Shown here: positions 10,351 through 17,572 of the stretch, in pieces
How positions within the stretch are numbered: position 1 is the stretch's first letter
Layout of the letters: every line of letters begins with the position of its first letter
Source of the DNA: SAR202 cluster bacterium bin87
GTDB taxonomy: Bacteria; Chloroflexota; Dehalococcoidia; Lucifugimonadales; UBA3495
NCBI GenBank assembly: GCA_002238825.1
Contig: MPNC01000002.1
Span: forward strand, 301,180-365,179
Direction of reading: 5' to 3'
Length of the DNA: 64,000 nucleotides
Notes under the pieces: generated by a model
Database searches by the model: none
Told to the model about the DNA's origin: nothing
The model's input: only the letters and a program-made list of their open reading frames with translations
Translations under genes and position numbers: made by a program

Positions 10351-11367
<1,017 letters not shown>

Positions 11368-11767: not shown

Positions 11768-13996
11768 TCATCCTGGGCCCTCAGTATCGAGAAAGCCGGC
11801 CAGAGATCGAGCCCGATTGATCGCATCGGGTGAAAGCGAGTTCTGACGTTCACGATGACGCTGAAGATATTCTAGCACTCCGTCGGCAGCCGACGCTTTA
11901 CACTGGCCGCAAAGCAGGTCCCCGGCGCGGCACCGCTGCTGCAGTTCTGCGTACCGCCCGGGTTCGCGGGTAACGAAAAAGGCGTGCAGGCTGGACACTG
12001 AACAGATGCGAGGATCGGGGTTTCCGCCGAACTGCCTTTGTTCTTCCAGTGTGCCCCGCCCGCCGGTGTAAGCCCGTTTGATCCGGCGACGGATGTCGGC
12101 CTCGTTGTCGGAGTAGGCGACTCGGCTCGCCGGCACCGCGTTGGTCATCACCTCCACCGCGCCGCCGGTCCGGGGGTCTTCGTAGGTGGTCAGGTTCCGC
12201 AATGGGCGCAGATACAGCGCCGACGGCTTCAGGAACCCGAACCGCTCGGCTATGTTGCGAGTCATGCGCACGTACACGTCGCCGCCGATGCCGTCGACCA
12301 CCAACGTGCGGCAGGGGCCGCCGGCGTCCGGCTGCTGTACGTGCAGGATGTCGGCCAGGCGCAGCACGGGGCGGAAGGTATCGGTAGCGCTGTCCCGCAA
12401 GCGCATCCCCAAGGCAGAGTTCAGCGTGCTGAGCGGGATTGCCTCGCCCAGGCTGAAGGCGGTGCGAACCACAGCCGGATTGTCCTGCTGCAGGTACGCA
12501 TCCGCGAGCGCCAGGTCCAAACCGTCGGCCGCCATGGCAATCAGAGTGTCCAGCATCACGCTTCTGGACCGTTCCGGATCGTCCAGTTCATCGCGAAAGG
12601 CGATGATTGCCGACGCTCCCAGCCCCTGGAAGCACACCAGAATGCTAGCCAGGGTTCCGTGGCCCAGATGCGCCGGGCCGTCGATGGGAATTGACGCGAT
12701 CACCTTGCATGGTTGTCCATCCGTAAGAGCTTGCAAAAAGAGATCAACGTCGCGACTGCCAACCATCTGACCCGTCTCCAGGTAGGGGTGAGGCAATTTG
12801 AACCACTGCAACAACCGTCGCCGCTGCTCGGGGTAAAGCTCGTTCAGACCGGTAACCCGCAGCTCCTTGATCAGCTCGTTCTCTCGTGCCAGCGGCTGGT
12901 CGCCGGAGCGCACCACCAGGGAAGGGATTGCTATGTCGGCCTCGTCGGTGCGAGTTTCCGGCGATTCCGCGTCCAGTATCTGGCCATGCAACCGACTCAG
13001 ACGCTGGGCGATGTCGTTGAGGGTCCGCTCCTGCGCCTCGCGGGCGTTGGATAGCAGCAGCCGGGCGATGTCCTCAGCCGTCTCCGTGGACAAGCCCAAC
13101 TGCCGGGCCCGACGCCGCGCGTTGACAAACAGGTTTTCTTCCACTGCCGGCTTGTGGATCGTGTCGCTCTCGAGGTATTTTTCCGCCGCAACATTGCGCG
13201 ACGCCTCGATGCGCGCGTGGGTCAGTTCCAGGATCTGGTCGTGGCTTCCGGAAATGATGGCGCGTTGCCGTCCTCGATATTCGGCGTAGGGCAATCCTCT
13301 GCTGGGCATTTCAGCCCGAACCGCGGCCGGATCTTCACCGGCCAGCAACCGGCTCACGCCGCTTTCGATCTCTGCAACTTCCACCAGGCGTCGCCAATCC
13401 GATGGCACCAAATCGGCCGGTTGCTCATCCAGCCACGCGAACAATTTCGGCATCCGCTGGAGGTACATTTCCACCGCGCCCGGGAGCGTCAGCTGGTCGC
13501 GAAGTTGCGACGCCGTCGTCAAGCACTGGCGACGATAGGCCGCCAAATACGGCTCCCGCAGGCGTCCGGGAGGCGGCGCGTCTCGCAGGTAGTCGGCGTG
13601 CCGTTCAACACTCACCAGGTCCAGCAGCGCGGCGTCCCTCAGAAGCGCCGCGCTCGCGTCGTTGTTCACTCCGCCCCAGGCGCCCCGGACGGCGGCGGCC
13701 ACCGCCGTCACGTATGAGTCGGGCGCTCCGGCTCCCCGCAACCAGGCGGCAGCGAGGGCAACTGACGCGTCGACACGTTGCGGATCATCCAGTCGGCCAA
13801 CCAGGTGCAGGAGCGCCGCAATGTTGACCACCGTAGCATCGACATCCCAATTGCCGGACTCGATCAACTCGGCGGCTATTGCAGCCACGCGCCGCGCCAC
13901 CGGAAGCCCCTGCCCATCGGGGTGCCCGGCGTACATTCCGGCCAGGGAGGCGGCCAGGCGATGCCCGTCGGGGATGTAGGTATGCGCCGATGTCAT
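11768..13996 (-). CDS. HD-like / chorismate-mutase-like / TrpRS-like fusion protein
   Basis: This 742-residue protein appears to join three modules. Residues 1-150 look like an HD-domain helical bundle, but the expected His-Asp pair reads HL (AALLHLVGRLDD, residue 64). Residues about 253-328 resemble a type II (AroQ) chorismate mutase: ARIEASRNVAAEKYLES, then PAVEEN, GLSTETAEDI and NAREAQ, keeping the Arg, Lys and Gln positions but not the usual RE pair. Residues about 375-720 align with archaeal/eukaryotic TrpRS: HPYLETGQ, IDGPAHLGHGTL (HIGH-like), VYVRMTRNIAERFGF, AYTGGRGTLEEQRQFGG and CGQCKASAADGVLEYL. The KMSKS loop is absent. It probably does not aminoacylate tRNA; a role in sensing tryptophan or chorismate pathways is only a guess. 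The domain calls rest on motif recognition, not a search. Confidence 0.75.
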   Translation of the reverse strand: MTSAHTYIPDGHRLAASLAGMYAGHPDGQGLPVARRVAAIAAELIESGNWDVDATVVNIAALLHLVGRLDDPQRVDASVALAAAWLRGAGAPDSYVTAVAAAVRGAWGGVNNDASAALLRDAALLDLVSVERHADYLRDAPPPGRLREPYLAAYRRQCLTTASQLRDQLTLPGAVEMYLQRMPKLFAWLDEQPADLVPSDWRRLVEVAEIESGVSRLLAGEDPAAVRAEMPSRGLPYAEYRGRQRAIISGSHDQILELTHARIEASRNVAAEKYLESDTIHKPAVEENLFVNARRRARQLGLSTETAEDIARLLLSNAREAQERTLNDIAQRLSRLHGQILDAESPETRTDEADIAIPSLVVRSGDQPLARENELIKELRVTGLNELYPEQRRRLLQWFKLPHPYLETGQMVGSRDVDLFLQALTDGQPCKVIASIPIDGPAHLGHGTLASILVCFQGLGASAIIAFRDELDDPERSRSVMLDTLIAMAADGLDLALADAYLQQDNPAVVRTAFSLGEAIPLSTLNSALGMRLRDSATDTFRPVLRLADILHVQQPDAGGPCRTLVVDGIGGDVYVRMTRNIAERFGFLKPSALYLRPLRNLTTYEDPRTGGAVEVMTNAVPASRVAYSDNEADIRRRIKRAYTGGRGTLEEQRQFGGNPDPRICSVSSLHAFFVTREPGRYAELQQRCRAGDLLCGQCKASAADGVLEYLQRHRERQNSLSPDAINRARSLAGFLDTEGPG

Positions 13997-14122: not shown

Positions 14123-14812
14123 TTAAACCGCGTTATCGCCCAGACGGGTCAGGAAGCCGGCGATGGCTTCGTTCACCGCTTCCGGCTGCTCCAGCGTGAC
14201 GAAGTGCCCCGAGTTGGGCACTATCACTACCTCAGCGTCCTGCAACTCGCGGCCCAGGTATTCCGCGTAACGCACCGGGGTCATGACGTCATCGGCGCCC
14301 ACGACCACCAGCGACGGCAGGCTGATTTCCTTGACGCGTTCCATCACGTCAAACCGGTCACAGGCTGCCAGGTCGTTGTGCTCGACCATGGGGCCGGATT
14401 GCAGCGCGCGGGCGGCCAGCCGAGGCGCCAACTCCGTGTTGATCGCCTCGTAATACGCCGGCGCCTCGGCGCGCCATTGGGCATCGTCCAGACAGCGGTT
14501 GAGGTAGTCCGGATGCACCCGCAGTCGCCCGCCGGTTCCGATGAGGACCAGGCCAGCCAGGTCCTCGGGGAACCGCAGCGCATAGTCCAAGGCGATGGCG
14601 CCGCCCATGGAGTGCCCGAACAGGACGAAGGGCGGATACCCCTTACCGCGGGCGTAATCCCGCACCCAGTCCACGTATCCGCCGATGCTGTCCCTGGGTT
14701 CCCCGTCCGGGTGACCCGGGAGGTTGACGGCGTCGGCTTTTTCGAACCGCGCCGTCTGGTAGTGGTAGGTCAGTTCGTTCTGGCCGGAGCCATGAACCAT
14801 CACGAGTTGCAT
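14123..14812 (-). CDS. Alpha/beta hydrolase
   Basis: This 229-residue protein is a small alpha/beta-fold hydrolase. The oxyanion-hole segment MQLVMVHGSGQNELTYHY opens the protein, the nucleophile elbow is GHSMGG (about residues 66-71), the Asp is expected in VVVGADDVMTPV, and the His in VPNSGHFVTLEQPEAVN. It is a lipase/esterase-like hydrolase of unknown substrate. It starts 12 bases after gyrA on the same strand, so it is likely the last gene of that operon. Confidence 0.85.
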   Translation of the reverse strand: MQLVMVHGSGQNELTYHYQTARFEKADAVNLPGHPDGEPRDSIGGYVDWVRDYARGKGYPPFVLFGHSMGGAIALDYALRFPEDLAGLVLIGTGGRLRVHPDYLNRCLDDAQWRAEAPAYYEAINTELAPRLAARALQSGPMVEHNDLAACDRFDVMERVKEISLPSLVVVGADDVMTPVRYAEYLGRELQDAEVVIVPNSGHFVTLEQPEAVNEAIAGFLTRLGDNAV

Positions 14813-14824
14813 TGCCGCATTCCC

Positions 14825-17572
14825 TTACAACAGCGGAGCCTGTCCGTTTACGTGAGCGTCCGGATCATCATCGCCGTCTTCGTCATCGTCGTCGATGTCG
14901 TCATCCGCTGTGTCATCTGCGTTTTCGACGATGACCTCATCATCGGCGTCCTCGTACTGGCTGTCCGCCTGCGCTGCAACCTCTTCCGCTTGTTCGAGGG
15001 CGGTGCTGGCTGCGCCGTCCTGCAGAGCCGGATCGTCCTGGCTGTAGTCCGTCGCCCTGAAGCAGTAGATGGATACGACGCTGTCGTCGCCGCCGCGCTC
15101 ACGCCAGATGATGACTCCCTTGGTCTGACGCGTGTTCACGACCTTGATCTCAGCCAGATCGATGCGGACCACCTGCCCGCGCGCCGAGATTATGAACACC
15201 TCGTGCCCTTCTTCATCGTTCATTTCTGCGGACGTAACGATCTTGGCGTCCACCACCGGGCCGGTGGGCTTGTCGCTCTGGTCCACGGCAAACGTCTTGA
15301 CGCCCATTCCGCCGCGATTCGTCTCCCGGTACACCGCCTCGCCCTTGCTGTTATACAACGGCGTGGCCTTGCCGTAGCCCTTTTCGCTCACCACCAGCAG
15401 GAATTCGTCCTCGGGATCGTTGACCACGTCCAGCGCCACCACCCGATCCTTGCCCCCGAATTCGTCCTTGAACTTGACGCCGATCACGCCAGTGGCGTTA
15501 CGGTTACGCTCGGGGATGCTGGTAACCGGACATAGCAGCGCCTGTCCCTGCTCGGTGACCATCACGACCGATGCGTCGCTCTGCGCCGGGCGCACGGCGA
15601 CCAGCTCGTCGCCGTCCAGCACCTTCATGGCAATCAGGCCCGACTTCCTGAGGTTCTGCAACTGGCCCGGACGCAACGCGTTCACCCGGCCATTCCGGGT
15701 GGCAAAGACATACAGCCGGTTGTATTCATCACGGCTGGCCGGCAGCATCGTCTGCACGTGCTCGCCTGGCTGCAGGGGGATCAGATTCACCAGCAGCGTG
15801 CCCCGGGCGGTGCGCCCCGAATCGTTGGGCGTCTCGTAGACGCTCAGGGGGTACACTCGCCCCTTGTTGGTGAAGAACAGCAACTGCTCGTGGGTATTGA
15901 CGACGGATATTTGCATTATCGCATCGTCGTCCCGGTTGTTTGCCCCACGTACTCCTTTGCCGCCCCGTCGCTGGTTGCGGTAGGTGCTGATGGGCACGCG
16001 CTTGATGTAGCCGCGCTGGCTCAGCGTGACGACCACGTCTTCCTGCACGATGAACTGTTCAATGGACTGCTCCTGCAGTTCCTCGGGAATTATCACGGTG
16101 CGACGCGGGTCGGCGTGCTTGCGCTTCACCTCGCGGGTTTCCCGCTTGATCTCGGCCCGTATCTTCTGCGGGTTCTGCAGCAGGTCCTCCAGCCGGGTGA
16201 TGGTCGCCAGCAGGTCGTTGTATTCCTCGTCCAGACGCTGCCGCTCCAGCGCGGCCAACCGGCGCAACTGCATATCGAGGATGGCCTGGGCCTGGATCTC
16301 CGACAGGTCGAACTGCTGCACCAGATTGTTGCGCGCCGTCTCCACGTCCTGGCTGCTGCGGATGGTCTCGATTATCGCGTCGATGGCGTCAAGAGCCTTG
16401 AGCAGACCCTCCACGATGTGGGCCCGGTCCCGCGCCCTCCCCAACTGATACTCGGTCCGCCGCCGGATGACGTCTTCGCGGTGGGTGATGAAATGGTTGA
16501 TCAGGTCCTTGAGCGGCAGTTCCTGCGGTTGCCCGTCCACCAACGCCAGCATGATGGCGTTGAAGGACGACCGCAGCGCCGTTCGCTTGTACAGGTTGTT
16601 CAGGATCACCGTGGGCTGCGCGCTGCGCGCCAGCTCGATGACCACCCGGATGCCCCGGCGGTCCGACTCGTCGCGGATCTCGGTGATGCCCACCAGGGTT
16701 TTGTCACGAACCAGGTTGGCAATCTTTTCCACCAGCGTCGCCTTGTTGACCTGATAGGGCAACTCGCTGATGATGATCCGCTGCCGGTTGGAATTGCGGC
16801 CCGGCATGTCCTCGATCTCGGTCACGGCCTCCATCACGACGCGCCCGCGGCCGGTGGCGTACATATCCCGCACGCCGGCCACGCCGCGGATCCTGCCGGA
16901 GGTGGGAAAGTCCGGCGCCGGAACGATCTCCATCAACTGGTCGACGTTGCACGTCGGGTGGTCGATGACGTAATTGATGGCGTCGCAGATCTCGCCCAGG
17001 TTGTGCGGAGGCATGTTGGTCGCCATGCCCACGGCAATCCCGGAGGACCCGTTGATCAGCAGGTTGGGCATCCGCGCCGGCAGTACCTGTGGCTCCTTGA
17101 GGGAATCGTCGAAGTTGTCGGAGTAATCCACGGTCTGCTGGTCGATGTCCGCCAGCATTTCGTCGGCAATGGCCGCGAGCCGGGCCTCGGTGTAGCGCAT
17201 GGCCGCCGGGGGGTCGCCGTCGATGCTGCCGAAGTTGCCCTGACCGTCGATCAACGGCGCCCGCATGGAGAACACCTGGGCCATACGCACCAGCGCGTCG
17301 TAAACCGACCCGTCGCCGTGGGGGTGGAACTTGCCCAGCACCTCGCCGACAATACGCGCGCTCTTGCGGTACTGGCTCCCAGGGCGGATTCCCATGTCGT
17401 GCATGGCGTAAAGGATCCGCCGCTGCACGGGCTTCATGCCGTCCCGCACGTCCGGCAGCGCCCGGGCCACGATAACCGACATCGCGTAGGACAGATACGA
17501 CTCGCGCATCTCGTCCTCGATGGGTCGCAGCGTAAATTCTCCGCCTGGCTGTTGTGGGGGCGCCGTGGTCAT
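14825..17572 (-). CDS. gyrA: DNA gyrase subunit A
   Basis: GyrA cuts and rejoins DNA in the A2B2 gyrase. The 915-residue product has the catalytic tyrosine at about 127 (AAMRYTEAR), the [10 protein letters not shown] segment of the quinolone-determining region, and a C-terminal beta-pinwheel with a GyrA box (QRRGGKG), which separates it from ParC. The position equivalent to E. coli Ser83 is Gly here. The C-terminus ends in a long acidic tail with runs of Asp/Glu (about the last 55 residues). It overlaps the upstream PuuD-like gene by 4 bases. No gyrB is in the window. Confidence 0.95.

Follow-up and report, generated by a model that had tools for sequence, protein, structure and literature searches.

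What does a single protein do that joins a part resembling HD hydrolases, a part resembling AroQ chorismate mutase (CM) and a part resembling TrpRS? We analyzed the locus that encodes such a protein within a 64-kb stretch of DNA (the window), together with genomes of its relatives. An earlier note had given the coordinates of the open reading frame (ORF), which hold, and had left its strand unstated. The gene lies on the minus strand and comprises 742 codons with an ATG start.

11768..13996, minus strand: whole gene, HD-like / AroQ chorismate mutase / TrpRS-like (ATG-start ORF, 742 aa)

The fusion gene is conserved throughout the genus

We searched for orthologues with the same layout and for their gene neighbours. 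A full-length orthologue without stops was found in all 14 genomes of the genus, with identities of 66-80%, and trpS adjoined it in every locus examined. Three of the 14 genomes carrying the unbroken ORF are single-contig assemblies. The identical unbroken layout in 14 genomes rules out an assembly chimera or a frameshift, either of which could have produced the fusion artificially, and the layout is therefore genuine. Of the three folds proposed from the sequence, CM-like and TrpRS-like were borne out by profile searches, Foldseek and hhalign, and HD-like is suggested by Foldseek. A PHROGs search returned no match for the fusion protein.

We then compared selection on the segments within the genus. 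The dN/dS was approximately 0.22 in the HD-like segment, 0.15-0.18 in the TrpRS-like segment and 0.039 in residues 241-395. Mean identity in residues 241-395 was approximately 92-94%, and synonymous variation was like that of the other segments (pS 0.56). The fusion ORF is a real conserved gene under strong purifying selection. Because residues 241-395 combine this dN/dS with the highest identity while their synonymous sites vary normally, the CM domain and its linker are the most constrained part of the protein. An RNA element or a T-box underlying the conservation or the regulation of trpS was considered and rejected, since Rfam matched only the 16S rRNA gene and synonymous sites vary.

The N-terminal part is HD-like

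13412..13996, minus strand: HD-superfamily-like domain (YpgQ-like fold), residues 1-195 (Foldseek search with the AF2 model)

No significant sequence family was found for the N-terminal 200 residues among Pfam and NCBIfam profiles, and the HMM matches were weak (TIGR00295 0.02, HDIG 0.05, 3dto E 0.29). The AF2 model of this part is all-helical. Its top Foldseek matches were the HD hydrolases 3djb and 5dqw of the YpgQ group (probability 1.00, E 7e-3 to 2e-2, TM about 0.45). These are the best structural matches of the model, but they are weak (E 7e-3), and the fusion protein differs from the YpgQ group in having HL in place of the metal-binding HD. The change from HD to HL had been pointed out previously and was seen again in the orthologues, with LL in one of them (L014); the His itself is not universal. 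Ala occupies the position of the later Asp of 3dto, and the H...HD...D metal ligands are not kept. Judging from the modelled fold, we describe this part as HD-like, with its metal motif lost.

The middle part matches AroQ chorismate mutases

13007..13276, minus strand: AroQ-type chorismate mutase domain, residues 241-330 (CM_2, gapless HMM alignment, hhalign; 93% mean identity in the genus, dN/dS 0.039)
12812..13006, minus strand: continuation of the third CM helix, with the linker to the TrpRS-like part, residues 331-395, nearly invariant (92% mean identity, dN/dS 0.039)

Pfam CM_2 matched residues 251-323 with an E value of 8.5e-7, a modest match at 29.5 bits against the curated gathering cut-off of 27. 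When compared with bona fide AroQ domains by hhalign, the middle part reached a probability of 96.6%, against 0.8% for a helical control pair. The bundle was matched to AroQ by Pfam, NCBIfam and hhalign, as the earlier reading had supposed. Searching the PDB sequences with a profile of the CM domain gave chance matches only and no CM, the profile being too shallow. Helices were predicted at residues 237-270, 282-299 and 304-342 (AlphaFold, with low pLDDT in the CM region), positions that would suit the three helices of an intertwined AroQ dimer.

To place the active-site residues, we used a reference profile of 13 ordinary AroQ domains, including those of E. coli PheA and TyrA, which aligns gaplessly to residues 245-324. 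Eight polar active-site residues of the E. coli enzyme (EcCM), as listed in the literature (PMC5526877), were considered, and five of them are kept in the fusion: R245, R262, K273, E286 and Q322 are the equivalents of R11, R28, K39, E52 and Q88. These five are invariant in all homologues of both lineages that carry the protein (n = 16, comprising the 14 genus members and two genomes of a second lineage described below). In every homologue, the positions of EcCM D48, R51 and S84 are taken by other residues, here K282, V285 and A318, respectively. The side chain of D48 has been reported as not imperative (PMC12329711), and the equivalent of S84 is Gly in BsCM_2, the DAHPS-linked domain of B. subtilis (PMC5526877). 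All 13 ordinary AroQ domains in the comparison have R51, which is Val in the fusion. The earlier note had read the RE pair of AroQ as changed to EE. This was an error of register: the gapless alignment sets V285-E286 at R51-E52, so that the catalytic Glu remains and Val stands in place of the Arg.

Because most of the active-site residues are kept but R51 is replaced, activity of the domain is likely and not certain. On these sequence grounds, we consider it quite probable that the AroQ domain of the fusion is catalytically active as a chorismate mutase.

The fusion protein resembles CMs of the AroQ-alpha type (CM_2; the N-terminal domains of E. coli PheA and TyrA) in its three predicted helices, in the gapless alignment over 80 residues and in the equivalents of R11, R28, K39, E52 and Q88, whereas D48, R51, S84 and D18 are replaced. 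Joining to other domains is common in the AroQ-alpha family. The partners elsewhere are PDT, PDH, DAHPS and CDT, whereas here the partner is a pseudo-TrpRS. In the AroQ-DAHPS proteins of B. subtilis and P. gingivalis and in CM-CDT, an AroQ-fold domain is likewise joined to a partner from the aromatic pathway; the fusion differs from them by its aaRS-like partner. We found no such partner, and no description of a CM-TrpRS fusion, in the open-access literature searched (most subscription journals lie outside it), in line with the earlier view that the layout is undescribed. Both halves belong to known families; what is new is the TrpRS-like type of partner for an AroQ chorismate mutase.

The fused domain is the only chorismate mutase candidate in the genus

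We compared 69 relatives, comprising the 14 genus members and 55 others from 44 genera. The records identified by name are metagenome-assembled genomes of Dehalococcoidia/Chloroflexota, and it is on such genomes that gene absences were judged. AroQ had exactly one match in each genus genome (14/14), always the fusion domain, and none in the 55 other relatives; AroH was found in none of the 14 genus genomes and in 53 of the 55 others (the two that lack it have a completeness of 71% and 78%), a complementarity that amounts essentially to one evolutionary event and not to 14 independent ones.

Prephenate dehydratase, an enzyme that requires prephenate, is kept in 14 of 14 genus genomes, as is trpA (14/14). 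In the window's genome and in G010, the dehydratase is encoded by an ORF of its own. A second, shorter prephenate dehydratase match was observed in two genomes (G009:C82:7725-8252 and G011:C25:7728-8258), with open frames of 193 and 198 aa.

The gene order in sister genera is trpA-aroH-aroF (DAHPS type I-beta)-GNAT-kinase. The syntenic order in the genus is trpA-DAHPS (type I-alpha)-GNAT-kinase, and no remnant of aroH was detectable at the syntenic site. The genus has lost the usual CM and appears to rely instead on the fused AroQ domain. The loss of AroH and the gain of the fusion is a case of non-orthologous displacement. AroH (Pfam CM_1), which fills the CM role in the sister genera, probably catalyzes the same reaction; its fold, however, is unrelated to that of the fusion's AroQ domain.

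It was also observed that a type I-alpha (aroFGH) DAHP synthase replaces the type I-beta enzyme of the sister genera at the site of aroH loss (L110:7642-9866, L111:9131-12679). The exchange of DAHP synthase type and the loss of aroH at one site point to a remodelling of the aromatic pathway at two of its steps.

These observations bear on the possibility that the AroQ domain is a non-catalytic sensor of chorismate or prephenate, with an unrecognised CM elsewhere in the genome and with the protein controlling TrpRS, tRNA(Trp) or a downstream partner. Regulatory AroQ domains do exist, namely LmCM and BsCM_2 of DAHPS (PMC5526877), and the replacement of D48, R51 and S84 in all homologues would suit a sensor. 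Yet the 14 genomes contain no other AroQ or AroH while keeping prephenate dehydratase, the essential Lys and the two Args that bind carboxylates do not vary, and a third CM family would have to be assumed, which makes such a sensor improbable. The earlier description of a degraded chorismate mutase is likewise probably wrong: five of eight residues are kept in the most conserved part of the protein, which is the sole CM candidate where PDT is retained.

The TrpRS-like part keeps the motifs of the anticodon module

11822..12811, minus strand: archaeal/eukaryotic-type TrpRS-like module (Rossmann fold and anticodon-binding domain), residues 396-725 (NF008925, 3a04)
12659..12670, minus strand: HLGH (class I HIGH motif), residues 443-446 (motif scan of homologues)
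12140..12154, minus strand: EVMTN at the KMSKS position, residues 615-619 (alignment to 3a04/3jxe, motif scan)
12056..12073, minus strand: AYTGGR anticodon-loop motif, residues 642-647 (TGGR invariant in both lineages, 16/16)
11900..12004, minus strand: C665-x23-C689-x6-C696-x2-C699, [4Fe-4S] motif of the anticodon-binding domain (invariant, 16/16)

The NCBIfam profile of archaeal-type TrpRS, NF008925, matched residues 396-721 with an E value of 1.7e-47, scoring 162 bits against an equivalog cut-off of 451. The A. pernix TrpRS 3a04 was matched in the PDB by phmmer (E 5.5e-27) and with the model by Foldseek (E 1.3e-15), where the top matches were all TrpRS. The C-terminal part does follow the archaeal/eukaryotic TrpRS, as first noticed.

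The TGGR loop contacts the anticodon in human TrpRS. In the TrpRS of T. maritima, the same Cys motif binds a [4Fe-4S] cluster beside the anticodon (PMC2954223). The HIGH site is degenerate, reading HLG[HRYN] in the genus and H[LV]GQ in the second lineage, so that the last His is not conserved. KMSKS was absent from all 16 homologues of both lineages in the motif scan; the loss of this loop noted before is thus general, and no close homologue has the motif intact. The two lineages are unlike each other at Trp-pocket positions. Where archaeal TrpRS has the Gln of its TQAAD/IQIAP segment, which we take to be the equivalent of human Q284 in the Trp site, the genus has an invariant Arg (Arg546) and the second lineage a Tyr.

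Compared with A. pernix 3a04, P. horikoshii 3jxe and the Fe-S TrpRS of T. maritima (2g36), the module shares homology over the whole domain, TGGR and C-x(21-24)-C-x6-C-x2-C, but it is without KMSKS and has a degenerate HIGH motif and changed Trp-pocket positions. Its sequence indicates that the ATP motifs, gone or degenerate in the 16 homologues, are lost, and that Trp binding is probably lost too. The TrpRS-like part cannot be expected to activate Trp, and the anticodon module is kept.

The same motifs speak against a ligase. The earlier note had raised an unknown ligase, which nothing in these 16 sequences supports. In a more specific form, the TrpRS-like part would activate an acid that the CM domain makes, be it prephenate, arogenate or another, in keeping with its Rossmann fold, with the partial retention of HLGH and with the invariance of Arg546 in the genus at the Gln position. 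However, KMSKS and the last His of HIGH are not kept, and the pocket residue is R or Y depending on the lineage. We give this form almost no credence.

The fusion gene is linked to a canonical trpS

10351..11367, minus strand: canonical bacterial trpS with intact KMSKS, next gene downstream (NF008922 E 1.4e-95, TIGR00233 E 2.2e-88)

Unlike genes for archaeal-type TrpRS, the fusion gene adjoins a canonical bacterial trpS. The fusion gene followed by trpS on the same strand was found in all 13 genus loci with flanks and in the two second-lineage genomes. In L039 and L041 the linkage holds although every other tested neighbour from the window is absent there. The gap between the two genes is 2-55 bp in six genus loci and up to 900 bp in others, with 400 bp in the window.

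We expanded the search beyond the genus. Two genomes of another, distant Chloroflexota family, G687 and G723, encode a 549-aa protein that is 51% identical to the fusion from residue 206 on, with matches to CM_2 (E 7e-9; 36.3 and 35.4 bits in the two genomes) and tRNA-synt_1b (E 2e-10). Its CM substitutions and its Cys and TGGR motifs are those of the genus, and KMSKS is missing here too. Identity between the genus and this second lineage is 64% in the CM segment, 62% in residues 346-400 and 45% in the Rossmann part. The HD-like part is absent from the second lineage, where homology begins at residue 206; it looks either to have been added later in the window's genus or to have been lost elsewhere. 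The second-lineage trpS adjoins the fusion gene and is 72% identical to that of the window.

L176:7633-10407 and L146:889-3720: fusion and trpS pair in the second lineage

In both genomes the fusion is the only AroQ match and AroH is absent; in the surroundings of the second lineage, AroH is missing in any case. These two were the only genomes with a further homologue among 400 searched from the phylum. No further homologue of the middle domain was found in 294 genomes of the class, and none of the protein on the plasmids and viral contigs searched. The fusion-trpS pair looks to have been horizontally transferred, moving together as a unit.

The invariant, operon-like linkage to trpS and the retained anticodon/Fe-S module could also point to a translation accessory factor, which would bind tRNA(Trp) as a partner of TrpRS (in delivery, quality control or modification) and whose bundle would merely resemble CM. 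This is very unlikely: the bundle matches AroQ in Pfam, NCBIfam and hhalign with five catalytic residues in register, and AroH was lost exactly in the fusion-bearing genus.

A different case is that of an active AroQ domain to which the dead TrpRS is only a scaffold, serving dimerisation or co-localisation with TrpRS and sensing nothing. The loss of the ligand pocket and the ATP motifs would fit, as would the fact that TrpRS is an obligate homodimer (PMC2954223) and AroQ domains are obligate dimers too; moreover, CM-CDT fusions gained no kinetic benefit (PMC10520331). A pure scaffold, however, would need neither the anticodon loop and four C-terminal Cys, invariant in both lineages, nor the constant linkage to trpS. 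We consider a scaffold unlikely, though less so than the sensor or the accessory factor.

A possible regulatory link to the chorismate branch point

Chorismate mutase stands at the branch point between Trp on one side and Phe and Tyr on the other. Where its regulation is known, amino acids act on it by way of ACT domains, of allosteric sites in the enzyme itself or of partner enzymes. The reading that we favour, and regard as fairly likely, is that the fusion serves the genus as its working chorismate mutase, a replacement for AroH that carries a pseudo-TrpRS as a regulatory module. The AroQ domain (241-330) would turn chorismate into prephenate for the Phe/Tyr branch, the ancestral AroH having been replaced. 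It would have acquired an archaeal-type TrpRS as partner, in which Trp activation is gone and the anticodon-reading Fe-S part is kept, and, in the window's genus only, a putative metal-less HD domain as well.

Because the fusion gene is tied to a real trpS, the dead TrpRS is most likely regulatory; we hold a regulatory role to be somewhat more probable than its opposite. By binding tRNA(Trp) or by forming a dimer with TrpRS, the module may set CM activity according to the state of Trp or of tRNA(Trp) charging, directly or through TrpRS. When Trp is short, chorismate would go to Trp, and when it is plentiful, to Phe/Tyr. This is compatible with the earlier suggestion of a sensor that links the start and the end of Trp metabolism.

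That tRNA(Trp) is the specific signal is possible but doubtful. Slightly more tentative still is the proposal that tRNA(Trp), uncharged or charged, is bound by the Fe-S anticodon module and directly switches the fused CM, dividing chorismate between Trp and Phe/Tyr. By analogy, a Trp-responsive control of CM would have precedents: in yeast, Trp activates the chorismate mutase Aro7 (PMC4458059), and B. subtilis uses uncharged tRNA(Trp) as a signal for Trp (PMC11255114).

In this lineage, the chorismate mutase seems to have been exchanged for one that bears a dead synthetase of exactly the amino acid competing for chorismate and whose gene is tied to the real trpS; the pair recurs in a second lineage. 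This suggests that the Trp or tRNA(Trp) state of the cell may control the chorismate branch point. If both the activity and the binding of tRNA(Trp) or TrpRS are true, the protein would be a direct link, at the protein level, from the translation machinery to the control of flux in amino acid synthesis.

Other features of the window

Upstream of the fusion gene lie an alpha/beta hydrolase gene and gyrA (14123-17572, minus strand), which are kept in 11 of the 13 genus loci and not in L039 and L041. Further along, the window holds a complete 16S rRNA gene (RF00177; 44022-45534, minus strand). Because the search of the 64-kb window found neither 23S nor 5S rRNA genes and no tRNA gene, the rRNA genes appear to be unlinked in the window's genome.
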